The translations under genes were made by a program, and so were the position numbers. Positions 33,006 to 50,344 of a DNA stretch of 64,000 nt are shown piece after piece; the stretch's first letter is position 1; each line of letters opens with the position of its first letter. The stretch spans positions 3,245,001 to 3,309,000 of the forward strand of contig NZ_JAVDYB010000001.1 in the NCBI RefSeq assembly GCF_031458235.1, read 5' to 3'. This DNA is from Catenuloplanes atrovinosus (lineage in GTDB: Bacteria; Actinomycetota; Actinomycetes; Mycobacteriales; Micromonosporaceae). The notes under the pieces were generated by a model. It saw only the letters and a program-made list of their open reading frames with translations. It was not told where the DNA came from and made no database searches.

Positions 33006-33827
33006 TCACTTGACCGGCAGCCAGAGCGCGAGGACCAGCGGCGGCTCCCAGCCGGGGAGCGTGGTGTGGCCCTGGCGGCACTCGTAGGTGACGCCGTTGA
33101 ACGTGACCTTGTCGCCGGTCTTGTAGGCGGTCCAGCTCTTCCAGTCGGTGGCGGCGCCGCTGCCGGTGTTGCCGTTGCCGGCGGCCGGCTTGGACGTGCC
33201 GGCCGAGGGCGTCGCGGCCGGCGGCTGTACCGGCTTCTCCGGCTGCGGCTTGGCCGGGGCCGGGTTCGCGGGTGCCGGGTTCGCGGGCGCCGGGTTCGCG
33301 GGTGTGGTGCCGCCGGTGCCGCCCACGTTCAGGTCGACGCAGTTGTAGAACGCCATCGGCGTGTCCGCGATGTTCCACACGGCCAGCATCTTGATCTTGC
33401 CGGAGTAGCCGCTCAGGTTCACCTGGTGCCTCACGGTCGCGGCCGGCTGCGCGCCGTTGTCGTTGAACTCCGCGACCTTCTTGCCGCCGACGAAATACTG
33501 CCAGGTCGAGGTCTTGTGCCGGGCGGTCAGCACCCAGGTGAACGTGGTGGACGTGCCCACGTTCGTGACCGGCCAGCCGCGCGAGTCGTCGTTCAGCGCG
33601 GAGAACTGCGAGAGGCCGCCGTCGCAGCTGGCCAGCCCCTTGGTGCCCTCCACCGACTGCGGTTCGTACTGGACGTTGCCGCAGTTCTTGGCCGCGCCGC
33701 TCGCGCAGTTCGCCTGCCGGCTCGGCGGGGACGAGATGTACCCGTGCGCGCTGGCCGGCGACGCGACGACCAGCGAACCGGCGACGGTGCCCAGCGCGAG
33801 CAGGGACGTGGTGAGGGTTCTACGCAT
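33006..33827 (-). CDS. Lytic polysaccharide monooxygenase (AA10) with C-terminal chitin-binding-type module
   Basis: A 273-aa secreted copper enzyme that oxidatively cleaves chitin or cellulose. Signal peptide residues 1-27 (cleavage ...ASA/HGYIS) exposes the histidine-brace His28; the second brace His is in TARHKTSTWQYF (about 104). The AA10 core ends with MLAVWNIADTPMAFYNCVDLNV. A linker of PANPA/PAKP repeats leads to a 45-residue CBM5/12-like module (WTAYKTGDKVTFNGVTYECRQGH...GWEPP). RBS AAGGAG. A paralogue lies 527 bp away in the same orientation. Confidence 0.93.
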   Translation of the reverse strand: MRRTLTTSLLALGTVAGSLVVASPASAHGYISSPPSRQANCASGAAKNCGNVQYEPQSVEGTKGLASCDGGLSQFSALNDDSRGWPVTNVGTSTTFTWVLTARHKTSTWQYFVGGKKVAEFNDNGAQPAATVRHQVNLSGYSGKIKMLAVWNIADTPMAFYNCVDLNVGGTGGTTPANPAPANPAPANPAPAKPQPEKPVQPPAATPSAGTSKPAAGNGNTGSGAATDWKSWTAYKTGDKVTFNGVTYECRQGHTTLPGWEPPLVLALWLPVK

Positions 33828-34320
33828 GACGAACGGTGCTCCTTCGTAGGACGGGCGCGCCTCGTGAACACCCGGCCCCTGGTGTCACTCAGCGTGGAAC
33901 TCACGCTAGAAGACGGTCACCTAAAGTAAGATCATGCATTCCCTAAATCTTCTTTATGATCTTCCCGTGGCCTTCTGATCGGTCGTCCCGACAATGCGTC
34001 GCCGAGGCCCGCGGCGCCTGCCGCACCGCCCGTCGACCGCTGTGGACGCCCGCCGCACCGGATGAAGACCCACGACCAGACCCCATCAGCGGTACGAAAC
34101 CCGCCCGGCCCGGCCCCACCCTGCTTCGCCGGGCCCGCACGGCCATGATTTGCGGGCATCCGGCCGAGACGTGAGCCGGCCGCCCGGTCCCGCGCCGTCG
34201 CGGTCCCGGGAGCGGCCGGAGCGGCCACGACAGTGGATCGACGACCCGGGCTCCGGCGAAGCCGGGTCGCGGCGGAGGCGCGCGGCCCGGCGTACCGTGT
34301 CAGCATTTTGGGTCTTCGGG
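33828..34320. other. Intergenic region upstream of the first LPMO gene
   Basis: No credible gene. The part near 33905-33960 is AT-rich for this genome and probably contains the LPMO promoter; AGCGTG-GAACT-CACGCT (33891-33907) is a small palindrome that could be an operator. The remainder is GC-rich spacer without clear structure. A 124-codon minus-strand frame (33932-34306) has implausible composition. Confidence 0.4.
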
Positions 34321-34349
34321 GTGGCCCGGACGCCGGACGCCCGGGCCAC
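34321..34349 (-). terminator. Hairpin after the second LPMO gene
   Basis: GTGGCCCGG and CCGGGCCAC form a 9-bp perfect stem with an 11-nt loop, starting 5 bp past the minus-strand stop. Confidence 0.5.
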
Positions 34350-34354
34350 GTGGG

Positions 34355-35092
34355 TCAGGCGCGGTCCCAGAGGGCGGGGACGTTCGGCGGGTCCCAGCCC
34401 ACGATCGCGGTGTGTGACTGCTTGCAGCGGTAGGTCGCGCCGCCGTAGGTCACGGTGGCGCCGGCCGGGTAGCCCGTGCCGGCCGCCCAGGTCCCGCCCG
34501 CCGGCGGAGGCTCGGTGGTGGCGGTCGGGCGCGGCGTCGGCGTGGGGGTCGGCGTGGCCGGCGGTGGCGTCGAGCCGCCGCCGAACTGCAGGTCCACGCA
34601 GGCGTAGAAGGCGTTGGTCGTGTCGGCGATGTTCCAGACCGCGAGCACCTTCTGGCGGCCGGACCGGCCGGCGAAGTTGACCGTGTGCCGCACGGTGGCG
34701 CCCGGCTGCGCGCCGCCGTCGTTGAACTCCGCGATCCTGGTGCCGCCGATGAAGTACTGCCAGGTGCTGGTCGCGTGCCGCGCGGTCAGCACCCAGTTGA
34801 ACGTGACGGTGGAGCCGACGGACGTGGCCGGCCAGCCCTTCGACTCGTCGTCGAGCTGGGCGAACCGGCCGACGCCGCCGCTGCACTGGGTACGGCCCTT
34901 GGGCGCCTCCACGGACTGCGGCTCCCACCGGATGTCGCCGCAGTTGCTGACCGCGCCGCTGGCGCAGAGCGCCTGCCGGCTCGGCGGGGAGGAGATGTAG
35001 CCGTGCGCGCTCGCCGGCGACGGGGCGGCGAGCGTGGTGGCGGCCACGGTCATCGGGGTGAGCAGGGCCAGGGTGACGAGGGGTCTCCGCAT
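34355..35092 (-). CDS. Lytic polysaccharide monooxygenase (AA10) with C-terminal chitin-binding-type module, paralogue
   Basis: A 245-aa secreted AA10 enzyme. Signal peptide 1-29 leaves His30 (HGYISSPPSRQ) at the mature N-terminus; the second copper-brace His is in TARHATSTWQYF. Core motifs match the neighbouring LPMO almost residue for residue, but the linker is Thr/Pro-rich (TPTPTPTPRPT) instead of PANPA and the CBM5/12-like module differs (YPAGATVTYGGATYRCKQSHT...GWDPPNVPALW). ATG 35092 follows AAGGAG; the frame upstream to 35176 is untranslated leader. Tandem duplication with diverged linkers suggests different substrates or wall positions. Confidence 0.93.
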   Translation of the reverse strand: MRRPLVTLALLTPMTVAATTLAAPSPASAHGYISSPPSRQALCASGAVSNCGDIRWEPQSVEAPKGRTQCSGGVGRFAQLDDESKGWPATSVGSTVTFNWVLTARHATSTWQYFIGGTRIAEFNDGGAQPGATVRHTVNFAGRSGRQKVLAVWNIADTTNAFYACVDLQFGGGSTPPPATPTPTPTPRPTATTEPPPAGGTWAAGTGYPAGATVTYGGATYRCKQSHTAIVGWDPPNVPALWDRA

Positions 35093-35216
35093 GACGGGCT
35101 CCTTCGAGTGGGGGTTCGCGGGCCGCGGCCGATGCCTGCGCGCTGCCGTGCGTGTGCACGGCGCGCTGCGGCCCAACCGCCGGTGCGCCCTCCACCCGGC
35201 GCCTGACGTACCACCG

Positions 35217-36012: not shown

Positions 36013-36510
36013 GTGACAAGCGATGGCGTCGCCTACGAGCGGCGCAGCGCAGCGCCCGTCGTCGCGCCGGCACGGCCGCGGAAGCTGGCCAAGGTGCCGT
36101 TCGTGGAGCTGGCGGAGGGGCGCCTGCAAGGGGTGGTGTCCAGCGGCTCGGACATCGAGCGGGTGTACGTGTCGTCGGTGACCGCGGGCGAGCACGGGCT
36201 GAGCTGCAACACCAACAACAACCGTCCGTGCGGCGGGCTCGGCGGCGGTTCCTGGGCGTGCAAGCACATCCAGGCGCTGGTCGCCGAGGCCGAGTTGCAG
36301 TACGGCACGGACCGCGTCGCCCGCTACCTGAAGGTGGAGGTGGCCGAGGGCGCGAGCGTGATGTCCGCGCTGAAGACCACCACCGCGCCGAACCGGGCGG
36401 CCGAGGTGTTCGCGAGCTTCCTGCGCCACCTGGCCTACCTGGAGCTTCCGGCCAGCACCGATCCGCTGCCCGAGCTGCAGTGGTTCCCGGCCGCCGGGGC
36501 GGTGCGCTGA
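36013..36510 (+). CDS. SWIM-like zinc-binding protein, first gene of the MoxR/VWA/DUF5682 operon
   Basis: A 165-aa protein. The distinctive part is C65-x7-C73-x9-C83-K-H85 (SCNTNNNRPCGG...WACKHIQ), a SWIM-like zinc knuckle with wider spacing than the classical CxC...CxH. An N-terminal beta segment (RLQGVVSSGSDIERVYVSSVT) precedes it, as in SWIM proteins, and a helical tail follows. The RBS GGAGGA (36001) fits GTG 36013. Stop and next start overlap as TGATG. Together with the next gene the combined length (about 614 aa) is close to E. coli YehQ, a SWIM protein encoded with yehL, yehM and yehP, so it may be a split orthologue. SWIM modules bind nucleic acid or protein. Confidence 0.8.
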   Translation: MTSDGVAYERRSAAPVVAPARPRKLAKVPFVELAEGRLQGVVSSGSDIERVYVSSVTAGEHGLSCNTNNNRPCGGLGGGSWACKHIQALVAEAELQYGTDRVARYLKVEVAEGASVMSALKTTTAPNRAAEVFASFLRHLAYLELPASTDPLPELQWFPAAGAVR

Positions 36511-37859
36511 TGCTGGCGGACGCGCTGCGCGCCGCCCCGGCCGGGGTCGACGACGCGATCGCGCTGGTCGACGGCCTGGACGACGCGCTCACCCACGGTC
36601 TCGCCCGGATCGACGAGGAGCGCGCGGCGGCGCTGGAGGAGCTGGCGGCCGCGTTCGCCGGGTCGCCGCTGGCCGACCGCGTCGCCGACTCCGTCGGAAA
36701 GATCCTCGCGGGTACGGTGACGGACGAGCACCTGGTCGCGCTGGCCGGTGCCCGCGCCGCGCTGCTCGGCGCCGCCCACGACGCGCTGCTCGGCGCGGTG
36801 GACGCGGCGCTGGGGCGCACCCGGGCGGTCTGGGACGCCACGCCGCTGACCGGCGACGAGCCGGGGCTGCTGGCCGGCGGACGCTCCTGGCTGCGCGAGC
36901 TGGCCATCGCGGGCTGGCGCGGCGTCGACCACGAGCTGGCCGCCGCGGGTGGGCAGGCGGTGGCGGCGCTGCTGGCCGACCCGGCGCGGCGCCGGCTGGC
37001 GGTGCTGCTCGACGGCTTCGCCGGTGAGCTGCGCGCCTGCGCGCCGGTGGCCACGCTGGACCGGGTGCCGGTGCGCCGCTGGTCCGACCTGTGGACGCGC
37101 GCGCTGCTGCTCTCCCAGGACGGCTACCCGGCGTGGGAGTCGGCTCCGGTCAGCGGCCGGCTGCTCTACCTGGGCGCGGACCTGCACGAGCACCCGACCG
37201 TGTTCCGCGCGCAGGTGCACGCGCTGCTGGAGACCGGCGACGAGGTGCGCGTGGTCCGCACCAGCGTCGCGGCGGCGAAGGTGGACACGATCACCGGCCC
37301 GTCCGCGTGGCGGATGCTGGCCGGGTTCCCGATCTTCCGCGCCATGGTCACCGGGCACACCGCCGCGGAGATCGACGGCATGGCGCTCACGCCGGCCGGC
37401 GACCTGATCTGGGACGAGGAGCGCGCCACCGTCGGCGAGGCCACCGATCCGCTCACCACCGCGCGGGTCAGGCTGTCCGCCGCCACGCTGCCGGCGGTCC
37501 CGCCGCTGGACCGGCACCCGGCCACCATCGCCACGCCGGTGCTGCTGGAGGGCGGCTTCGACCTCGGCGGCGGCGTCACGGTCGCGGTCGACCACGACCG
37601 GCTGCCCGCGGCCGGGCCGCTCACCCCGGCGCTGGCCGACGCGGCCACCACCTGCCTCGGCCTGCTGCGCTGGGACGGTGGCCGCTGGTCCGTGCAGCCG
37701 CTGGCGGTGCAGGCGACCGTGAAGAAGAACCAGGTCACCGTGCACACCGGCGCCTGGGCGAACGGGCCGGACGACCCGAAGGCGGCGAAGGCGGAGGCGG
37801 CGGCCGGGACCGCGGTCGACGTGCTGCGCGAGCGCGCGGGAAGGCTGCTGCGGAAATGA
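36510..37859 (+). CDS. Uncharacterised operon protein, probable C-terminal half of the SWIM component
   Basis: A 449-aa Ala/Leu-rich protein with no catalytic motif I can name. The first 200 residues are helical (repeated ALxxALxxA patterns); a middle part holds RRWSDLWTRALLLSQDGYPAW and VSGRLLYLGADLHEHPTVFRAQVHALLE, and a beta-rich C-terminal part (FDLGGGVTVAVDHDRLPAAG, WDGGRWSVQPLAVQATVKKNQVTVH) follows. Placement directly after the SWIM-like gene with one shared base (TGATG), and before the VWA gene with a 4-bp overlap (ATGA), argues for a stoichiometric partner. By comparison with E. coli YehQ it is best read as the separated C-terminal region. Confidence 0.75.
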   Translation: MLADALRAAPAGVDDAIALVDGLDDALTHGLARIDEERAAALEELAAAFAGSPLADRVADSVGKILAGTVTDEHLVALAGARAALLGAAHDALLGAVDAALGRTRAVWDATPLTGDEPGLLAGGRSWLRELAIAGWRGVDHELAAAGGQAVAALLADPARRRLAVLLDGFAGELRACAPVATLDRVPVRRWSDLWTRALLLSQDGYPAWESAPVSGRLLYLGADLHEHPTVFRAQVHALLETGDEVRVVRTSVAAAKVDTITGPSAWRMLAGFPIFRAMVTGHTAAEIDGMALTPAGDLIWDEERATVGEATDPLTTARVRLSAATLPAVPPLDRHPATIATPVLLEGGFDLGGGVTVAVDHDRLPAAGPLTPALADAATTCLGLLRWDGGRWSVQPLAVQATVKKNQVTVHTGAWANGPDDPKAAKAEAAAGTAVDVLRERAGRLLRK

Positions 37860-39253
37860 CCGTCAGTGACGAGAATCGGCGGCAGGTGCTCTACTGGCGG
37901 CTGCTGGCCCGGCTGTTCGACCCGGAGGAGCAGGCCTCGCTGGAGTCGGCGAGCGTGGCGATCGTGGACGACCTCGGACTGCCGTCGCTGCTGCTCGACC
38001 CGTCCGTCTCGGTGGACAGCGTGGTGCAGCGGTTCCCCGACCTCGAGACCGAGATCGACGGGCTGATGGCGCCGGTGGCCGACGACCGGTCCGGTGAGGT
38101 GCGCCGGGCCGCCCTGGTGTCGAAGCTGCTGCTCAACGTGTTCGCCACCGGCAGCGGCAACGTCTCCGCGGAGCAGTTGGCCCGCTGGCAGTCGGACGCG
38201 GGCTGGTTCGAGCGGGCGCTGGGCTGCGAGCCGGGCGCGCTGCGCGGCCGGGCCGCGGCCACCGGCGCGGGCGGCGGGTCCGGTGACGCCGGCGGATACG
38301 GCGAGGGCGGCGCGCCGTCGTTCGGTGCGCCGGCCGGCAACGGCCCGGGCAGCGGTTCCAACGTCAACCTCGGTCCGGCGCTGGCCGCGATCGAGGCCGA
38401 CCTGATCAAGCGCATGCAGCTGCGCGAGGTGCTGGCCGATCCACGGCTGGCGAAGAAGCTCACGCCCAGCATGTCGCTGATCGAGCAGTTGCTGCGGGAC
38501 AAGGACAACCTGGACGGCGTGGCGCTGGCGAACGCGAAGGCGCTGATCCGCCGGTTCGTCGACGAGGTGGCGCAGGTGCTGCGCACCCAGGTGGCGCAGG
38601 CCAGCACCGGCACGATCGACCGGTCCATCCCGCCGAAGCGGGTGTTCCGCAACCTCGACGTGGACCGGACCATCTGGAAGAACCTGCCGAACTGGAGCCC
38701 GGAGGACGAGCGTCTCTACGTCGACCGGCTCTACTACAAGCAGACCGCCAAGCGCGTGGAGCCGGCCCGGCTGATCGTGGTGGTGGACCAGTCCGGCTCG
38801 ATGGTCGACGCGATGGTCAACTGCACCATCCTGGCCTCCATCTTCGCGGGCCTGCCCAAGGTCGACGTGCACCTGATCGCGTACGACACGCGTGCGCTGG
38901 ACCTCACCACATGGGTGCACGACCCGTTCGAGGTGCTGCTGCGCACCCAGCTCGGCGGCGGCACGGACGGGACGGTCGCGCTCGACCTGGCCCGCCCGAA
39001 GATCGTCGACCCGCGCAACACCGTGGTCGTCTGGATCTCCGACTTCTACGAGTGGCGCGAGCAGGCCTGCTGGGACGGCTTCTCCGCGATCCACCGCTCC
39101 GGCGCCCGGTTCATCCCGGTCGGCTCGGTGAGCAGCGGCGGCCAGCAGTCCGTCAACCCGTGGTTCCGGCAGCGGTTCAAGGATCAGGGCACCCCGGTGC
39201 TCTCCGGCCGGATCAAGAAGCTCGTCACCGAGCTCAAGAACTTCCTCGTCTAA
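37856..39253 (+). CDS. VWA (von Willebrand A) domain protein of the MoxR operon
   Basis: A 465-aa protein. Residues 1-250 are helical with a Gly-rich spacer (GGGSGDAGGYGEGG) near 140-155. The C-terminal VWA domain has MIDAS residues DQSGS (Asp311, Ser313, Ser315) in LIVVVDQSGSMVDAMV, a Thr in GGGTDGTVALDL, and an Asp in VVWISDFYEW, so metal binding is intact. VWA proteins paired with MoxR ATPases act as substrate adaptors for AAA+ remodelling, as in chelatases and RavA/ViaA. Corresponds to E. coli YehP by domain and neighbourhood. Starts 4 bp inside the previous gene and precedes the ATPase by 23 bp. Confidence 0.88.
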   Translation: MTVSDENRRQVLYWRLLARLFDPEEQASLESASVAIVDDLGLPSLLLDPSVSVDSVVQRFPDLETEIDGLMAPVADDRSGEVRRAALVSKLLLNVFATGSGNVSAEQLARWQSDAGWFERALGCEPGALRGRAAATGAGGGSGDAGGYGEGGAPSFGAPAGNGPGSGSNVNLGPALAAIEADLIKRMQLREVLADPRLAKKLTPSMSLIEQLLRDKDNLDGVALANAKALIRRFVDEVAQVLRTQVAQASTGTIDRSIPPKRVFRNLDVDRTIWKNLPNWSPEDERLYVDRLYYKQTAKRVEPARLIVVVDQSGSMVDAMVNCTILASIFAGLPKVDVHLIAYDTRALDLTTWVHDPFEVLLRTQLGGGTDGTVALDLARPKIVDPRNTVVVWISDFYEWREQACWDGFSAIHRSGARFIPVGSVSSGGQQSVNPWFRQRFKDQGTPVLSGRIKKLVTELKNFLV

Positions 39254-39276
39254 GACACCCAAGGAGTAAGAGACAC

Positions 39277-40392
39277 ATGAGCAACGAGCTGCTGCGCGCC
39301 CCGGCCGAGGTCAAGTACGCGGACGAGCTGGACTGGCTGGAGTCGGTCGACGACGGGCCGAAGCCGTTCTCCTGGCGGCTCAGCCCGAAGATGGTGCGCC
39401 TGTTCATCCTCGGCTCCGAGCGCGCCGACGGGCTGGACCGGGAGATCCCGCAGAAGTGGTTCGGCGACCGCAGCTTCGTCGAGCGGGCCATCGTCACGCT
39501 GGCCTCCGACCGCGGCCTGCTGCTGATCGGCGACCCCGGCACCGGCAAGAGCTGGCTGGCCGAGCTGCTGGCGGCCGCGATCAGCCGGAACTCGACGCTG
39601 GTGGTGCAGGGCACCGCGGGCACCACCGAGGACCACATCAAGTACTCGTGGAACGTCTCGATGGTGATCGCGAAGGGCCAGTCCCGGCAGTCGATGATCC
39701 CGTCGCCGATCATGACGGCGATGGAGAACGGCGTGATCGGCCGGTTTGAGGAGCTGACCCGCTCGACCAGCGACGTGCAGGACGCGCTGATCTCGATCCT
39801 GTCCGAGAAGTACGTGTCCATCCCGGAGCTGGACGAGGACAACATCGTCTTCGCCAAGCCCGGCTTCTCGATCATCGCCACGGCGAACAGCCGGGACCGG
39901 GGCGTCAACGACCTCTCGTCCGCGCTGAAGCGGCGCTTCAACTTCGTCCGCATCCCGGTGGTGACGAACAAGAAGAGCGAGGCGGAGATCGTCCGGTTCC
40001 GCACCGAGGAGCTGCTGCGCCGGCACAACATCGAGCTGGAGGTGCCGCCGACGCTGCTGGACGTGCTGCTCCAGTCGTTCGCGGACCTGCGCGCCGCGTC
40101 CGCGTCCGCGACCAGCGACGACGAGCGCCTGGAGTCCGCGTTGTCCACCGCCGAGCAGATCGGTGTGCTGGAGGACGCGATCCTGCACAGCAACTTCTTC
40201 GGCGCCGCCGCGCTCACCTCGCAGACACTGGCGTCCTCGCTGGTCGGGTCGCTGGCTCGGCGCAGCCCGGAGGACCTGGCGATCCTGAACAAGTACTGGC
40301 ACGGCGTGATCGAGCCGCGCAGCAAGGACGCGGGTGGCGAGTGGAACGGATTCCTGGAGGGCGGTCGTCAGGCGATCGCCACCCTGTCGTGA
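39277..40392 (+). CDS. MoxR-type AAA+ ATPase
   Basis: A 371-aa ATPase. Walker A GDPGTGKSW at about 85-93, a MoxR-type insertion with ENGVIGRFEELTR (Walker B region, about 150-163), sensor 1 in IIATANSRDRG (about 203-210), and the arginine-bearing ALKRRFNFVRIP about 215-228. It should form a hexameric remodelling ring working through the VWA partner. The RBS AAGGAGT (39261) precedes ATG 39277. This is the YehL-like component. Its stop overlaps the DUF5682 start (GTGA), so the two are translationally coupled. Confidence 0.9.
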   Translation: MSNELLRAPAEVKYADELDWLESVDDGPKPFSWRLSPKMVRLFILGSERADGLDREIPQKWFGDRSFVERAIVTLASDRGLLLIGDPGTGKSWLAELLAAAISRNSTLVVQGTAGTTEDHIKYSWNVSMVIAKGQSRQSMIPSPIMTAMENGVIGRFEELTRSTSDVQDALISILSEKYVSIPELDEDNIVFAKPGFSIIATANSRDRGVNDLSSALKRRFNFVRIPVVTNKKSEAEIVRFRTEELLRRHNIELEVPPTLLDVLLQSFADLRAASASATSDDERLESALSTAEQIGVLEDAILHSNFFGAAALTSQTLASSLVGSLARRSPEDLAILNKYWHGVIEPRSKDAGGEWNGFLEGGRQAIATLS

Positions 40393-43151
40393 GCGGCCCG
40401 TTCGATGCCCTCCGGACGCAGTTGCTGGGCGCCGCCGAGGCGCTCGCCGGCGGCCCGGCCACGCTGCCGGACATCCTCAGCGGGATCGTCGACGACGTGG
40501 ATCACGCTCTCCGTGAGCCGCTCGAGATCTTCCCGGTCTGCCACCACTCCCCGGCCTCCGCGCTGGCGATGGTGCGCCGGCTCCGGGAGAAGCAGCCGAA
40601 GGTGATCTACCTGGAGCTGTGTGAGGACCTCACGCCGCTCCTGACCGAGCTGCGCAACTGCCGGCTGCCGGTCGCGCTCCAGGCGTTCGCGTCCGAGCTG
40701 GACGGGTTCCCGAAGGAGTCGGCGCCGCTCTCCGTCATCGCGCCGATCACCGAGGCCTCGGCGGAGTACCAGGCGATCTCGTACGCGCTGGAGACGCCGG
40801 GCGTGGAGCTCGTCCTGGTCGACCGGTCCACCGACCACGTCTTCCAGTGGCAGCCGGACGCGTCCGCCGCGCACGACCAGCCGGAGGAGGCGGAGGACGA
40901 CCTGCACGGCGACGCGGTCGGCGTGGAGATCGGCGACCTGCGGCCCCGGTTCGCCGAGCTGGAGGAGCACCTGCTGCACCACGGCCGGGTCCGGCACTGG
41001 TCGGAGTGGTGGGACCAGTACGTGGAGCAGCCGCTCGCGGGCGCGGACTACGACACGTACCGGCAGGTCATGGTCCTGATCGGCTCCCTGTTCCGGCGGC
41101 TGGCGCCGCACGATACCCGGCGGTACGCGTCCGACGAGGACCGCGAGCGCTACATGTGGACGCGGATCCGGCAGCACCTGGCCGCGAACGACCTGGACCG
41201 GGCCGACGCGCTCTACGTCTGCGGCGCGTTCCACGCGGCGAGCCGGCTCGCGGAGGTCGGATCGGAGCCGGGCACGCCCGACTTCGACATCACGCCGCGG
41301 ACCGCGACGAAGTGGCTGTACGGCCTGATCCCGTCCAGCCACTCCGCGATCGAGGCGCAGTTCGGGCTCGCGCCCGGCTCGGTGTCGATCGCGGCCGCCA
41401 CCTGGCAGAAGAACCTCGGCCGGACCCGCCTGAAACCGTTCCAGCTGGCCGGGCAGAAGGGCCGGAAGCCCGCGAGGCTGCCCGCGCCGGTCGCCGCACC
41501 GGGGCCGGTCGAGGACCAGCTCACCGGCTACCTGTCCGGGCCGCCCGCGCTGGACGGGCTGGACGAGGAGGAACTGCGCGGCTGGTGCGTCGACATCGTC
41601 CGGCTCGCCCGGCGCAACGGCTACCTGGCCAGCACCGCGGACGCGATCGCGGTGTTCGAGACGTCGATCCTGCTCGCGGGCATGCGCGGGCGGGCGCGGC
41701 CGACGCCGTACGACTTCCAGGACGCGGCCGTCACCTGCATCGAGAAGGACACCGTGCCCGGCCGCCGGGACGTGCGCCGGCTGTGCGAGATCCTGCTCGG
41801 CGGCGACCGGGTCGGCCAGGTCGGGTACGACGCGCTGCCGCCGCTGGCCCGCGACGTCTACGACCGGCTCGCCCCGCTCGGCCTCAACCTCGAGCAGCGC
41901 AGCATCCAGCGCGCGCTGCTCGACCTGGCGGCCCGGCCCGAGCTGGCGGCCTGCTCGCGGTTGCTCTGGATGCTGCGCTACCTGCTGCCCGACCACGCGG
42001 TCCGGCCGATCATGGGATCGCGGAAGCTGGGCGAGCGGCACATCCAGGAGAGCTGGGACCTCGACCTCGGCCGCCACCAGCGGACCATCATCGAGCTGGG
42101 GTACGAGGGCGTCACCGTGGAACAGGTGCTGGAGCAGCGCCTGCGCCGCGCCGCCTGGGACCCGAAGGCGACCGCCGCCACCGCGCTCACCGCGGTCGAG
42201 GACTCACTGCTGTTCCTGGACAGCCCGCGCCTGACCGACGAGCTCGGCGCGCGGGCGGTGGAGCTGCTGGCGGCGGAGCGTACCGTCGACGAGGCACCGG
42301 CCGTGCTGCGCCGCATCCGGCGGCTGCTCGCGCACTACCGGGCCACCACGCCGGTGCTGCCCGCCTGGTGCGAGTCGTTCGTCCGGACCGGGTACGCGCA
42401 CTACTGCACGCTGCTGCCGACCGCGTTCGTCGCGGACGACACCGGCGTGCGGCAGGTCGGCGCCATGCTGGGCTTCCTGTTCAGCATGGAGAGCCTGGCG
42501 CTGTCCCTCGGCTGCGACCGCGCCCAGCTGGAGCTCGCGGTCCGGCAGTCGCACCCGGAGCACCCGGCGAAGATCGCGCTGCTCTGGGCCGCGCTGCACC
42601 AGCTCGGCGCGCTGCCGCTGGCCGGCCTGCGCGCCACCGTCGACGACCTGCTCGGCAACCCGCTGGTCGTGCCCGCGTTCCCGCAGTACGTGGCCGGTTT
42701 CATCCAGTCCCTGGAGTCGGTGCCGCGGCTGGCCCCGTTCGTGGTCGAGACGCTGTCCAAGGCGTTCGCCCGGCTGCCCGACCCGATCCTGCTGCCCTGG
42801 CTCCCCACGCTGATCACCACGCTGAAGGACCAGGCCGCCGAACTGGTGCCGGTGCTGACCCGCGAGGCCGGCCGCACCTTCCCCGGCACGCTGCCCGCGG
42901 TGGACTCCTGGGTCGCGCCGTGGAACGCACCACCGCGCAAGCCGCGCGCCACCGCACCCGCGGCGGCACCGGCCCGGGGCGCGGCCGGCACGCTGCTGGC
43001 CGCGCACCCGTCCAGCACCGACGCGGTCGCCGGCCTGCTCGGCTGCGCCGGCGAGTGGTCCGCCGCGCCGGAGGGAGCCACCGGCACCGCGGTGGCCGCG
43101 TTGCTCGCCGCGCATCCGCAGCCGGCGGAGGCGGTGGCGCTGCTGGTCTAG
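40389..43151 (+). CDS. DUF5682 protein, large component of the MoxR/VWA operon
   Basis: A 920-aa cytoplasmic protein. The N-terminal 290 residues form an alpha/beta domain with PVCHHSPASALAMVRRL, KVIYLELCEDLTPLL, VELVLVDRST and a later ADALYVCGAFHAAS; the His-rich start and Glu-containing strand resemble the TraB/ChaN/EreA hydrolase superfamily, an inference. The middle and C-terminal parts are helical repeats (DLDLGRHQRTIIELGYEGVTVEQVLEQRLRRAAW), suited to scaffolding. A short Pro/Ala linker is near the C-terminus. Same domain as E. coli YehM. GTG 40389 shares 4 bp with the ATPase stop. A strong hairpin directly follows, ending the operon. Confidence 0.85.
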   Translation: MSGPFDALRTQLLGAAEALAGGPATLPDILSGIVDDVDHALREPLEIFPVCHHSPASALAMVRRLREKQPKVIYLELCEDLTPLLTELRNCRLPVALQAFASELDGFPKESAPLSVIAPITEASAEYQAISYALETPGVELVLVDRSTDHVFQWQPDASAAHDQPEEAEDDLHGDAVGVEIGDLRPRFAELEEHLLHHGRVRHWSEWWDQYVEQPLAGADYDTYRQVMVLIGSLFRRLAPHDTRRYASDEDRERYMWTRIRQHLAANDLDRADALYVCGAFHAASRLAEVGSEPGTPDFDITPRTATKWLYGLIPSSHSAIEAQFGLAPGSVSIAAATWQKNLGRTRLKPFQLAGQKGRKPARLPAPVAAPGPVEDQLTGYLSGPPALDGLDEEELRGWCVDIVRLARRNGYLASTADAIAVFETSILLAGMRGRARPTPYDFQDAAVTCIEKDTVPGRRDVRRLCEILLGGDRVGQVGYDALPPLARDVYDRLAPLGLNLEQRSIQRALLDLAARPELAACSRLLWMLRYLLPDHAVRPIMGSRKLGERHIQESWDLDLGRHQRTIIELGYEGVTVEQVLEQRLRRAAWDPKATAATALTAVEDSLLFLDSPRLTDELGARAVELLAAERTVDEAPAVLRRIRRLLAHYRATTPVLPAWCESFVRTGYAHYCTLLPTAFVADDTGVRQVGAMLGFLFSMESLALSLGCDRAQLELAVRQSHPEHPAKIALLWAALHQLGALPLAGLRATVDDLLGNPLVVPAFPQYVAGFIQSLESVPRLAPFVVETLSKAFARLPDPILLPWLPTLITTLKDQAAELVPVLTREAGRTFPGTLPAVDSWVAPWNAPPRKPRATAPAAAPARGAAGTLLAAHPSSTDAVAGLLGCAGEWSAAPEGATGTAVAALLAAHPQPAEAVALLV

Positions 43152-43156
43152 TCACG

Positions 43157-43195
43157 GCCGGCCCGGCCGGGAATTCACATTCCGGCCGGGCCGGC
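43157..43195 (+). terminator. Strong hairpin terminator of the five-gene operon
   Basis: GCCGGCCCGGCCGG (43157-43170) pairs perfectly with CCGGCCGGGCCGGC (43182-43195) around an 11-nt loop, 5 bp past the DUF5682 stop. No T-run follows. It isolates the operon from the next gene, which has its own -10 box at 43201. Confidence 0.65.
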
Positions 43196-46297: not shown

Positions 46298-46714
46298 CCG
46301 TCTCGTGGCGCGGCCGGCCGAGATTCACCGGTGGTCGCGAAGCCGGTCCGTGCCGCGCGTCGCGAGCTCGGGCGGCGGCCGATCCCCGACGCGGCGCTCG
46401 GCGAACGGGTTGCCCGGCGCCGCCACGGAACCGGCCCGCGGCTCCGGCCGGATCGGCGACCGAAATCGCAGGTCACCGGCGGCCGGGGCGGCTTGGGGAA
46501 TATTCTTGAACAGACCGTCCCGACCCCGTGACCGCCCGTAGTCGGCACTTACCGCGGGGCCGCCCATGGTGCGGACGGTATCCCGCCCGGTCGCTATGAG
46601 GTTTCCCGGAACGCTCAGGACACGCCGTCCTCCTGCCGACCGTGACAACGAACCCCTCGACCGGGCGTGAGCGCGTCCGGTGGATCAACCCGTATTCCCG
46701 CGGAAGGCGTGCCG
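46298..46714. other. Intergenic region upstream of the 1209-aa protein
   Basis: About 417 bp with no credible ORF. The stretch GGGGAATATTCTTGAAC (46495-46511) is AT-rich for this genome and may hold the promoter for the following gene. No other structure is clear. Confidence 0.35.
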
Positions 46715-49700
46715 ATGTCCACGGAATCCTTCACCCCCGCGCGGCAGCAGCCCGACCCGCCGCCGCCGGGGCAGCCGGGTGCGGCGTCATCAGCGGAGTC
46801 AGACCTGGTCAGCGCGGCCGGTCTGGTCCCGCCGCCGCCCGGACCGCCCATCCCCCACCCCACCAACGGCCCGCTGGCGCCGGTGGACGAGGACGCGGCC
46901 CAGCCCCGGCTCGCGTCCCCGGACGAGGCAAGCGCGTTCCCGCTACCCCGCCGCGAGCGCGGCGCCCAGCTGCCGACCGGCAGCTGGCAGGCCTTCGCCA
47001 AGCCCAACCCGGCCGCCATCGACGCGGCGAACGCGCTCATCTCGGGCGTGGGCGTGCCCGGCGCGGGCCCGGCACAGCCGGCGGAACCGCTGCGGGCACG
47101 CGCGGCGGTGGACGCGGCGAACGCGCTGCTCTCCGGCGGGGGGGCGAGCGTTTCCGACGCGGCTTCCTCGGGCGCGGGTGTTTCCGACGCGGGTGTTTCC
47201 GACGCGGGTGTTTCCGACGCGGGTGTTACCGGCGCGGGTGTTACCGGCGCGGGTGTTACCGGCGCGGGTGTTACCGGCGCGGGTGTTACCGGCGCGGGTG
47301 TTACCGGCGCGGGTGTCGCGGAGGCGGGCGTTCCGGGTGCGGACGTCGCGCACGCGCGCGTTGCAGGGGCGGACGTCGTGGGCGCCGGCGTCGCGGGCTC
47401 CGGGATGCGGGCTGCCGCTGGAGCGGCGGACATGCGGGACCCGCTGGTGGACGAGCCGGACTTCGACGAGAGGGACATGCCGACTGCCGGATTCCGCCCG
47501 CCGGACGCGGTGACCCCGTCCGCGAGCGGCGCCCTCGCACCAGCGGCAGGCGACGCTCCGGCGGCAGGCGCCGGATCGGCGACAGGCACCGGATCGGCAG
47601 CAAGCACCGGACCGGCAGCAAGCACCGGACCGGCAGCAAGCACCGGACCGGCAGCAAGCACCGGACCGGCAGCAAGCACTGGATCGGCGGCAGGCAACGC
47701 ATCGGCGGCTGCCAGCGCATCGACCGCAGGCAGCATGCCGGCTCAAGAGGGCACACCGGCGGCAGACGCCGCGCCGATCGCAGACAGCACGCCGGCCCCA
47801 GAGGGCGCACCTGCGGCAAACGGCGCCCCGGCCGCGGGTAGCCCACCGGCCGCGAGCGACGCCTCCGCCGCGGGCGGAGCCACGATCAAGAACCCGGCCG
47901 GCGGTACCGGGTACCGGCCGCCGAAGCCGGTGAAGGCCACCTCAACCGGCACGGAGGAAACCTCGTCCGACGGGTCGGCGAACCGGACCCGGTCGGCGCG
48001 CCGCGCCGCCGGGCGGGACGCGGCCGCGTCTTCGCAGACCGCTCCCACCTCGCCCGGCACGGACGGCGAGCACGGCCGACGGCCCTCCGAGGCCGCGCCG
48101 GCGTTCCGCCCGGCCGGTCCGGCGCTGCGGCGCCTGGAGGCGGGCAGCACCGCGTCCGCGCCCCGGCACGGGGCCGGCGCACGCCCGGCGGCCGGGGGCG
48201 ACACCCCGGCCGGGACGGAGACGGGCGGCATCGGCACGCCGGCCGCCCGTCCGGGCACGTCCCCGGCGTTCCGTCCCGCGCGGGCGGCATTCGCCGGGCG
48301 CGACGACGCTGCCGGCACGCCCGGCGAGGCGGCCACACCGACCGGCGAGACCAGCGGCACGACCGCCGCGTCCACCGGCGCGGCGTCGGGCCTGCCCGGC
48401 ACCGCGCCCACGCACGGCATCGCGACCGCCCACGGCGACGCGACCATGCCCGGGACGCCGCCGGGCGGTACAGCCATGCCCGGCGATCCGGCGGCGCACG
48501 GCGCCCCGGCGGCGCACGGCAGCCCGGCCACGCACGGCAAGCCGGCCACGCACAGCGGCTCGGTCTCGCACGGCCACGCGACCGCGCACGGCAACCCCGC
48601 CACGCAGGGCAGCCCGGCCACGCAGGGCAGCCCGGCCACGCAGGGCAGCCCGGCCACGCAGGGCAGCCGGGCCACCCGGACCGCCACCGCGCACGGCAGC
48701 CCGGCCGCGCACGGCAGCCCGGCCACACACGACAGCCCGGCCACACACGGCAGCCCGGCCACGCAGTCCACGGCGCACGGCGACGCGACCACCCACGGCA
48801 ACCCGGCCGCACCGGCCACCACAAGCACGCACGGCGACGCGACCACCCACGGCACCGCGGCCTCGCCCGGGGGCGCGGGACACACCGTCGCGGCCGGGGA
48901 CGGGGCCAAGGCCGCCGACGCGCCCGCGCGGACGCCCAAGCCGCTCCCCGCGCTCCGGCAGGTCCCCGCCCCCGCGCCCGCCCCGGGCGACGAGGCCGTG
49001 GAGAAGTCCGCCGACGACGGTGACGCCGCGGTCGCGGAGGAGGAGGCCGCGGAGGCCCGGCGCCGGGAGGACCGGGCCGCGCTGCGCCGTGCCCAGATCC
49101 TGCTGGCGCAGGGTGACGCCCGGTCCGCGCTCGCCGAGGCCGGTCCGGCCATGGCGCGCCAGGCGTCCGACGCGGACGTGTGGCTGCTGATGGCCCGGAT
49201 CCGGATCGCGCTGGACGACATCCCGGGTGCGCTTCGGGCGACCGAGACCGCGACCGCGCTGAAGCCGGGGAACGCGGCTACCTACGCCGTGATCAGTGAC
49301 GCGCTGTCCGCGGACGGCCGGCACCAGGACGCGATCGCGGCCGCGCGGGCCGCGCTGGAGGCGGAGCCGGGCAACCCGCACTGGCAGCACCTGGTCGCGA
49401 CGCGCCTGGTCGAGGCCGGCGAGGACCGGGCCGAGGCGGACAAGCTGGCCCGCGCCGCGGTCGCGGCGATGCCGGACGATCCGGCGTTCCAGGCGACGGC
49501 CGTGCTCACCCAGGGTTCGCGGCACCGCCGCGGGCGTGGTGGCGCGGACGCGGACCCGGACGTGGAGGAGCCGAAGCGCGGCGAGATCGAGAGGGCGCCG
49601 GTCCGCAAGTGGGGCTGGGGCAAGCCGCTCGCGCTCCCGGCCGGTCCGTCGGCGGCGAGCCCCGCACCGTCCGAGCCGATCGTCGACTTCGTCGAGTCGC

Positions 49701-50344
49701 TGAAGGACGACCGAGTGGTGGACGGTGAGGCGGTGGAGACCGTCGCGGAGGAGAGGACCGCGCCGTCGTACCGCCCGCCGCGCCCGATGCCGAAGCTGGT
49801 CACCGAGGACCCGGGCGACAAGCCGTGGCAGCGCGGCGGCCCGGCGTCGATGACCGGCACGATGCGCCCGGGCGGCCCGGACTGGTCCGCGCTGACGAAC
49901 GGCCGCCCCTGGCAGCAGGGCACCGGCGCGTTCGCGATGGTCCCGTCCGGCGCGTCCGCGGTCCGCTGGCCGATGGGCCGGGTGGGTCTGGTCGGCGCGC
50001 TGGGCGCGGGCGTCACGTACGCCTGCCTGGTCTGGAATTTGACCGAGACGGCCCGGATCGCGGCCGCGATCGCGCTGATCACGATCGTGCTGATGGCGGT
50101 CCAGTACGTGTGGTCGCTCGGCGCGGACGGCCGGCGCGGGCTGGGCCGCGCGCTGAGCTCGGTCCGCCGCGTGCTGGCCGCCGTACTCGGCATCGGTGGC
50201 GTGGTGGCGCTGGGCCTGGCCGCGGCCGGCACCGACGCCCGCATGCCGTGGATGCTGGCCGGCGCCGCCGCCGCGTGCGTGCTCGCCGCGGTGATCGCCG
50301 CGACCGAGCCGCGCTCCCGGCGCCGCACCCCCGGCCAGCGCTGA
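46715..50344 (+). CDS. Giant low-complexity protein with TPR region and C-terminal membrane helices
   Basis: A 1209-aa protein. Residues 1-770 are Ala/Pro/Gly/Thr-rich and built of repeats: a duplicated IDAANALISG/VDAANALLSG unit near 105-145, ten [G]V-S/T-x-A-G pentapeptides, STGPAA hexapeptides, and HG-x-PAT/QGSPAT repeats. A TPR-like helical domain spans about 780-930 (RRAQILLAQGDARSALAEAGPAM, VWLLMARIRIALDDIPGALRATETATALKPG, DAIAAARAALEAEPGNPHW). After a charged linker, three or four hydrophobic helices (about 1090-1195) anchor it with a basic tail. Topology suggests a long cytoplasmic arm. ATG 46715 has GGAAGG nearby; GTG 46667 is possible. No family for the whole protein. Confidence 0.75.
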   Translation: MSTESFTPARQQPDPPPPGQPGAASSAESDLVSAAGLVPPPPGPPIPHPTNGPLAPVDEDAAQPRLASPDEASAFPLPRRERGAQLPTGSWQAFAKPNPAAIDAANALISGVGVPGAGPAQPAEPLRARAAVDAANALLSGGGASVSDAASSGAGVSDAGVSDAGVSDAGVTGAGVTGAGVTGAGVTGAGVTGAGVTGAGVAEAGVPGADVAHARVAGADVVGAGVAGSGMRAAAGAADMRDPLVDEPDFDERDMPTAGFRPPDAVTPSASGALAPAAGDAPAAGAGSATGTGSAASTGPAASTGPAASTGPAASTGPAASTGSAAGNASAAASASTAGSMPAQEGTPAADAAPIADSTPAPEGAPAANGAPAAGSPPAASDASAAGGATIKNPAGGTGYRPPKPVKATSTGTEETSSDGSANRTRSARRAAGRDAAASSQTAPTSPGTDGEHGRRPSEAAPAFRPAGPALRRLEAGSTASAPRHGAGARPAAGGDTPAGTETGGIGTPAARPGTSPAFRPARAAFAGRDDAAGTPGEAATPTGETSGTTAASTGAASGLPGTAPTHGIATAHGDATMPGTPPGGTAMPGDPAAHGAPAAHGSPATHGKPATHSGSVSHGHATAHGNPATQGSPATQGSPATQGSPATQGSRATRTATAHGSPAAHGSPATHDSPATHGSPATQSTAHGDATTHGNPAAPATTSTHGDATTHGTAASPGGAGHTVAAGDGAKAADAPARTPKPLPALRQVPAPAPAPGDEAVEKSADDGDAAVAEEEAAEARRREDRAALRRAQILLAQGDARSALAEAGPAMARQASDADVWLLMARIRIALDDIPGALRATETATALKPGNAATYAVISDALSADGRHQDAIAAARAALEAEPGNPHWQHLVATRLVEAGEDRAEADKLARAAVAAMPDDPAFQATAVLTQGSRHRRGRGGADADPDVEEPKRGEIERAPVRKWGWGKPLALPAGPSAASPAPSEPIVDFVESLKDDRVVDGEAVETVAEERTAPSYRPPRPMPKLVTEDPGDKPWQRGGPASMTGTMRPGGPDWSALTNGRPWQQGTGAFAMVPSGASAVRWPMGRVGLVGALGAGVTYACLVWNLTETARIAAAIALITIVLMAVQYVWSLGADGRRGLGRALSSVRRVLAAVLGIGGVVALGLAAAGTDARMPWMLAGAAAACVLAAVIAATEPRSRRRTPGQR
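47177..47326. repeat. Ten 15-bp tandem repeats in the giant protein gene
   Basis: Three GGTGTTTCCGACGCG units, six GGTGTTACCGGCGCG units and one diverged unit run in frame, encoding GVSDA and GVTGA pentapeptides. Confidence 0.9.
47596..47685. repeat. Five 18-bp tandem repeats in the giant protein gene
   Basis: GGCAGCAAGCACCGGACC repeats with substitutions only in the last unit, encoding AASTGP hexapeptides. Confidence 0.88.
48601..48672. repeat. Four 18-bp tandem repeats in the giant protein gene
   Basis: CACGCAGGGCAGCCCGGC repeats four times, the last with one change, encoding TQGSPA. Looser HG-based repeats surround it from about 48480 to 48860. Confidence 0.85.

Follow-up and report, generated by a model that had tools for sequence, protein, structure and literature searches.

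MoxR ATPases have been described as working with VWA partners to mature dedicated clients, and YehL is counted as one of two MoxR ATPases in E. coli K-12 (PMC3893208). CoxD and CoxE contribute to the maturation of the CO dehydrogenase cluster (PMC4240915), and in NorQD the insertion of metal is driven by stretching of a linker in the VWA protein (PMC13036017). The open-access literature, as searched here, did not contain DUF5682, and no function was found in it for the YehL operon. In this study we analyzed a five-gene operon that encodes a MoxR ATPase, a VWA protein and a DUF5682 protein together with a SWIM-like protein and a partner protein, located in a stretch of 64,000 nucleotides from Catenuloplanes atrovinosus (contig NZ_JAVDYB010000001.1, positions 3,245,001 to 3,309,000; hereafter the window, whose own numbering is used below). 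We propose that a divergent YehL-type MoxR-VWA machine is encoded here, with a DUF5682 hydrolase as its dedicated client, an explanation to which we assign, as a whole, a probability of about one half.

Open reading frame calls within the 64-kb window place five co-directional genes, g1 to g5, on the plus strand at 36013-43151. The junctions are, in order, an overlap of 1 bp, an overlap of 4 bp, a gap of 23 bp and an overlap of 4 bp, in agreement with the genes, coordinates and spacing given in the initial annotation of this DNA. The first gene, g1 (36013..36510, GTG start, 165 aa), encodes a SWIM-like protein with the candidate zinc ligands C65, C73, C83 and H85, and these four positions are kept in 86 of 86 aligned rows, the window included. 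The spacing of the ligands in the window, C-x7-C-x9-C-x-H, differs from the classical CxC...CxH, and Pfam SWIM (PF04434) gives no match, the best Pfam model being a sub-threshold helix-turn-helix (E 0.039). The earlier description of a SWIM-like zinc protein therefore holds as regards the four conserved ligands, while its placement in SWIM proper is not proven. The product of g2 (36510..37859, 449 aa) is a partner protein without a known family; no Pfam match was found at E 0.1 and no NCBIfam or PADLOC family, and scans of Pfam and NCBIfam gave no family above cut-off for either g1 or g2.

The remaining three products could be assigned to families. The product of g3 (37856..39253, 465 aa) is a CoxE-type VWA protein (PF05762, VWA_CoxE, 9e-25) carrying an N-terminal extension that E. 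coli YehP does not have. Its metal ion-dependent adhesion site (MIDAS), with the sequence DxSxS (D311/S313/S315, DQSGS at 38786), is intact. The product of g4 (39277..40392, 371 aa) is a YehL-like MoxR AAA+ ATPase (PF07728, AAA_5, 2.2e-36) with Walker A (GDPGTGKS) at 39529, Walker B (RFEEL) at 39742, sensor 1 (ATAN) at 39877 and an arginine segment at 39922; the motif positions are kept in 81-82 of 82 rows. Both the Pfam matches and the motif alignment bear out the earlier assignment of these two proteins as a VWA protein with intact MIDAS and a MoxR ATPase with Walker and sensor motifs. The assignment of the 920-aa product of g5 (40389..43151, GTG start) to DUF5682 was likewise correct, with PF18934 matching at 8.8e-36 and 124 bits against a cut-off of 26 bits. 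An alternative GTG start at 40341 would lengthen this protein to 936 aa. In the full-length AlphaFold2 model (mean predicted local distance difference test, pLDDT, 74.4; predicted template modelling score, pTM, only 0.47), an N-terminal alpha/beta domain is followed by a long C-terminal helical region that makes up most of the protein.

To judge the operon as a unit, we used the best 80 of 534 g5 candidates from a genome scan, all of them actinomycetes by title. Co-occurrence of the five genes had been chosen beforehand as the refuting test, and 78 of the 80 loci carry the whole set with a common order and strand; the remaining two (L052 and L072) end at contig edges. An orthologue of g2 was found in 79 of the 80. 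A conserved wider neighbourhood was considered and rejected, the commonest flanking gene family occurring in just 9 of 78 loci. The flanking genes are thus mostly not common to the loci, and the five genes therefore form a real unit. The distance matrices of the five proteins correlate with one another (r 0.47-0.85, 63 loci). The g5 protein was found in 5 of 5 genomes of its own genus and in 22 of 61 genomes of relatives, own genus included, one of the 22 being weak. As a separate observation, the MoxR stop and the start of the aligned DUF5682 are 1387 bp apart in Nonomuraea maritima (L063:8611-9998), a possible insertion; the next-largest spacing at this junction is 132 bp among 79 loci.

The part of g5 predicted to form a Tiki/TraB-like domain comprises residues 26-352 (40464..41444, plus strand), as judged from invariant residues and from profile and fold tests. 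Alignment of 34, and then 36, N-terminal domains (N-domains) from several subtypes and phyla, some of them just 21% identical to the reference row, revealed the following residues invariant in 36 of 36 sequences (window numbering): H52, P55, E76, P94, A96, P119, S124, E126, D145, W208, E213, R236, R252, E253, M256, G279 and H282. This residue pattern resembles that of the Tiki/TraB superfamily. The His...Glu...Arg...His motif set of Tiki proteins is present and collinear in all 36 sequences, and the candidate active-site codons in the window are those of H52 (40542-40544), E76 (40614-40616), R252-E253 (41142-41147) and H282 (41232-41234). The active site of the Tiki superfamily has been described as 2His/2Glu (PMC6254334). 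The PF18934 model starts past the first conserved motif, HxxP (g5 residues 51-55), its position 1 falling at residue 20 of both the reference row and E. coli YehM, so that the candidate catalytic histidine is omitted from the model. This late start may be the reason why the relation to Tiki/TraB went unnoticed.

Profile comparisons point in the same direction. When 34 N-domains were compared with 24,736 Pfam models, the commonest off-family models were TraB_PrgY_gumN (4 of 34) and the Tiki-superfamily model ChaN (3 of 34), with a best E of 0.013 each, and no other off-family model matched more than two members; the member sequences are related, and the matches are not independent. Pfam found TraB in 0 of 41 genomes of relatives, and the sequences for a nine-sequence TraB profile were for this reason drawn from E. 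coli YbaP and plasmid records. In hhalign the N-domain scored 31.0-31.9 against this profile. Permuted columns never exceeded 25.1 in 200 runs or 21.3 in 500 runs, the reversed control scored 17.2 and five decoy profiles 11.9-18.6, and the GxxH, E and R..GAxH motifs of the N-domain and TraB profiles align collinearly. In Foldseek, the full-length g5 model retrieved designed and natural helical-repeat proteins on top, at E of 0.048 or more, and was set aside. The N-domain was consequently modelled alone, giving an alpha/beta model with mean pLDDT 78.9 and pTM 0.81. Its top three PDB matches all come from Tetrahymena complex IV entries and are to a chain of 383-384 residues (E 0.27-1.3); the publication on one of these entries names a TraB-family subunit of the complex (PMC10060162). 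Among 33 matches in BFVD, viral TraB family proteins take ranks 2 and 4 (E 1.4 and 2.1).

Several results weigh against the Tiki/TraB assignment. The best E of 0.013 for TraB and ChaN misses the Pfam cut-off, unrelated models matching single members scored better (CBM46, 0.0063; Trypan_PARP, 0.0078), and the window's own N-domain taken alone matched no Pfam family. The hhalign probability of the N-domain against the TraB profile is just 15-17%, the same decoys scored up to 24.2 against the TraB profile, and the comparison fell to a score of 23.5 and a probability of 2.2% with type-A rows alone and to a score of 5.6 in global mode. Foldseek gave no PDB or BFVD match to the N-domain at E ≤0.001, and the identity of the matched Tetrahymena chain with the TraB subunit could not be verified. 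A PDB profile search with the N-domain retrieved no Tiki protein. The same was true of the TraB profile searched against PDB, and PDB sequence searches with g5, the N-domain and the TraB profiles returned no meaningful relative. The profile and fold tests thus agree in direction, each of them being weak singly and none decisive. Taking the invariant residues and the profile and fold tests together, we consider the DUF5682 N-domain, including that of E. coli YehM, probably a remote member of the Tiki/TraB superfamily, an assignment that is new here. That the domain is catalytic, a predicted hydrolase, appears reasonably probable from the conservation of the candidate active site.

Gene fusions bear on how the products may work together. 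DUF5682 is fused to VWA_CoxE in two genomes (L131:6782-11572 and L133:6602-10273). The initial annotation treated g1 and a helical partner, g2, as separate proteins, which they are in the window; in genome G023 (locus L140), of the same class as the window genome, they form one single protein of 670 aa, and in G161 and G334, of the same genus as G023, they are separate. The DUF5682-VWA and g1-g2 fusions suggest a physical partnership. The same components occur together in other phyla: a Fusobacterium vincentii record carries, in a row, genes for SWIM, a 637-aa protein without family, MoxR, DUF5682 and VWA, and a faecal contig carries MoxR, DUF5682 and VWA. It may be added that the two DUF5682-VWA fusions each adjoin a protein of 1584-1683 aa with no Pfam match at E 0.01.

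We propose DUF5682 as the client because it is the sole enzyme-like protein encoded alongside MoxR and VWA in the examined loci and is twice fused to VWA; by analogy with known MoxR-VWA pairs, the chances of this client relation seem to us about even. In the proposed mechanism, a MoxR hexamer would engage via the CoxE-type VWA adaptor, and MoxR-VWA would spend ATP on maturing the DUF5682 hydrolase, for which metal insertion is one possible route given how NorQD and CoxDE serve their clients, or else on switching or feeding it, so that the presumed direction of action is from the motor to the hydrolase. The N-domain, with its apparently intact His/Glu/His active site, would be the enzyme part of DUF5682, and the C-terminal helical region would probably be a docking scaffold. 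The SWIM-like protein (g1 and g2) could serve as a putative zinc-binding adaptor within the same complex. Some Tiki enzymes are metal-independent (PMC6254334), which speaks against metal insertion as the form that maturation takes.

Other explanations were weighed against this one. DUF5682 could be a non-catalytic or a haem- or metal-binding, ChaN-like platform with the Tiki fold, MoxR-VWA and the SWIM-like protein then remodelling an unlinked client. Two Pfam models recur below threshold, and the haem-binding model ChaN is one of them; the long helical region predicted in the model would suit a scaffold, and members of the superfamily may be without catalytic residues (PMC6254334). However, invariance of His/Glu/Arg/His in 36 of 36 sequences across subtypes and phyla is unusual for a mere scaffold, and we regard such a platform as unlikely. 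A different possibility is that the operon is simply the yehLMPQ orthologue and shares its role, since the MoxR, VWA_CoxE and DUF5682 families are identical, as the initial annotation noted in equating the two domain sets. The family identity stands, but the window operon is not yehLMPQ itself, as a closer copy is present at 7.45 Mb of the same 8.9-Mb genome (L010, G000:C1:7448651-7458420). There, a DUF4132 protein, MoxR, DUF5682, VWA and a SWIM-type protein of 653 aa, which Pfam SWIM matches only below threshold (E 0.011), follow the E. coli yehI-L-M-P-Q order, with identities to E. coli of 65% for MoxR, 59% for VWA and 37% for DUF5682, and the DUF5682 copy scores 310 bits with the family model versus 126 bits for g5. 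The window MoxR is 42.5% identical to E. coli YehL over 341 aa (E 5e-86) and the window VWA 35% identical to YehP (E 2.5e-42), while DUF5682 gives only a short local match to YehM (E 1e-4). The gene order also differs, and the DUF5682 protein has 920 aa versus 753-759 aa in the yehLMPQ type. Neither g1 nor g2 alone shows more than little similarity to the YehQ profile, and the score of the joined g1 and g2 profile against it was reached by 1 of 100 permutations. On pairwise identity, on which the call rests, the window operon is a divergent paralogue of yehLMPQ rather than an orthologue of the E. coli operon, and the orthologue explanation is highly improbable. As a further observation, Virgisporangium (L076:2810-5491) encodes, upstream of its window-type operon, a relative of the 7.45-Mb DUF4132-type protein (44% local identity) to which Pfam DUF4132 itself gives no match. 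Only tentatively would we go further and view YehL-type operons, yehLMPQ among them, as an unrecognized class of ATP-dependent hydrolase machines, in which a MoxR ring and a VWA adaptor load, unfold for or gate DUF5682 as a Tiki/TraB protease or esterase, a SWIM-like protein acting as the substrate adaptor.

The operon might instead be a biological-conflict module, anti-phage or similar, with a logic akin to that of the MoxR-vWA ternary systems, whose hallmarks have been described as variable effectors and rapid change (PMC7159879). The MoxR and VWA core is common to both, and the spread of the operon is patchy: in a phylum sample g5 matched in 8 of 396 genomes, of which 6 carry the window type at ≥70% identity and 2 are weak. 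At least two separate DUF5682 loci are present in 9 of the 21 genomes positive for DUF5682 among 296 of the phylum, a count that leaves out G050 and G259, in which the additional match covers just a piece or comes from an interrupted fragment. Window-type g5 (69-77% identity) is carried by five PLSDB records, some of them chromosome-sized. The conflict explanation was given more weight on account of the Fusobacterium copy, which starts 99 bp behind a same-strand restriction-modification cluster (L177:20-3386) with genes for a D12 methyltransferase, a DpnII endonuclease, a Mrr-type endonuclease and an N6/N4 methylase. The window-type five-gene operon on Streptomyces fungicidicus plasmid p1 (L178, 927 kb), which lies between the genes for an N-6 DNA methylase and a type IV secretion DNA-binding protein, is about 0.55 kb from the methylase gene.

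Against a conflict role, the operon proteins have no PADLOC family beyond weak AAA/TerY-like matches (the best being mads_8, E 1.4e-5 over the ATPase core, and TerY, E 8.8e-4), bpMoxR reaches only E 0.038, and the Fusobacterium MoxR and DUF5682 likewise give no PADLOC family beyond such weak matches. Scans of the five proteins with Pfam and NCBIfam gave no VMAP, iSTAND, FtsH or beta-propeller above cut-off. The VWA C-terminus lies within 0-1 aa of that of the window in 79 of 79 loci, with no effector added, and, depending on which protein is compared, 50-52 of 59 loci have their nearest neighbour within their own genus (Paractinoplanes counted as Actinoplanes). A pattern-limited scan of viral_contigs confirmed 0 of 13 pattern matches, and the one match to phages, 23% identical, was in the faecal contig, which was judged bacterial. 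The Pfam names of seven neighbours in the window (RNase H, M55 peptidase, MFS transporter, two lytic polysaccharide monooxygenases (LPMOs), a tetratricopeptide repeat (TPR) protein and a DUF305 protein) include no defence family. For the window copy the conflict role is therefore unsupported by PADLOC and by the VWA ends, whereas the restriction-modification genes beside the Fusobacterium copy are in its favour, and we consider it unlikely.

A perfect inverted repeat is located just past the g5 stop (43157..43195), its arms at 43157-43170 and 43182-43195 being paired at 14 of 14 positions around an 11-nt loop, so that the 14-bp hairpin noted in the initial annotation is indeed present. Such arms occur at 3 distinct places in the 64 kb, against 0-1 in each of 20 simulations under a first-order Markov model. 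No T-run lies downstream of the hairpin, and among 78 loci of relatives only 29 show any perfect hairpin with a stem of ≥9 bp in the 120 nt next to the stop. For these reasons a special element was rejected, and the repeat is taken as an ordinary GC-rich terminator candidate. A promoter scan found 0 promoter-like sites. Elsewhere in the window, two LPMO_10 genes with CBM5/12 modules are located on the minus strand at 33006-35176, near an RNase H gene, and a large TPR protein at 46667-50344 contains low-complexity repeat tracts (GVTGA..., ATHGSP...).

If DUF5682 is a Tiki/TraB protein with an intact candidate active site, the open question would be reduced to point mutations in E. coli, and MoxR-VWA motors would be linked to hydrolases. 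A hydrolase client would provide the E. coli operon, so far uncharacterised, with a function open to experiment.

We have compared the proposed MoxR-VWA-hydrolase system with those described previously. With NorQ-NorD and CoxD-CoxE it has in common a MoxR ATPase and a CoxE-type VWA protein with MIDAS beside a candidate client; in contrast to them, its candidate client is not a respiratory or CO-oxidising metalloenzyme but, by prediction, a hydrolase, and a SWIM-like component is added. The MoxR-VWA core is also that of the ternary MoxR-vWA systems with VMAP, iSTAND, FtsH or beta-propeller; however, the third component in the window is DUF5682, and its VWA protein is free of added effector domains. 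As in E. coli yehI-L-M-P-Q, MoxR, VWA, the N-terminal DUF5682 motifs of YehM and a zinc-ligand protein are present, whereas the gene order differs, a DUF4132 gene is not adjacent, and the SWIM-like gene is split, with non-classical ligand spacing. The N-domain resembles the Tiki/TraB/ChaN/erythromycin-esterase superfamily in its first histidine motif, the glutamate ending the second strand, the R(E/N) helix and the last motif, GAxH. It differs from that superfamily in the first motif of the window type, PVCH rather than GxxH, and in the setting of the domain, since DUF5682 has a large helical extension and sits in a MoxR-VWA operon.

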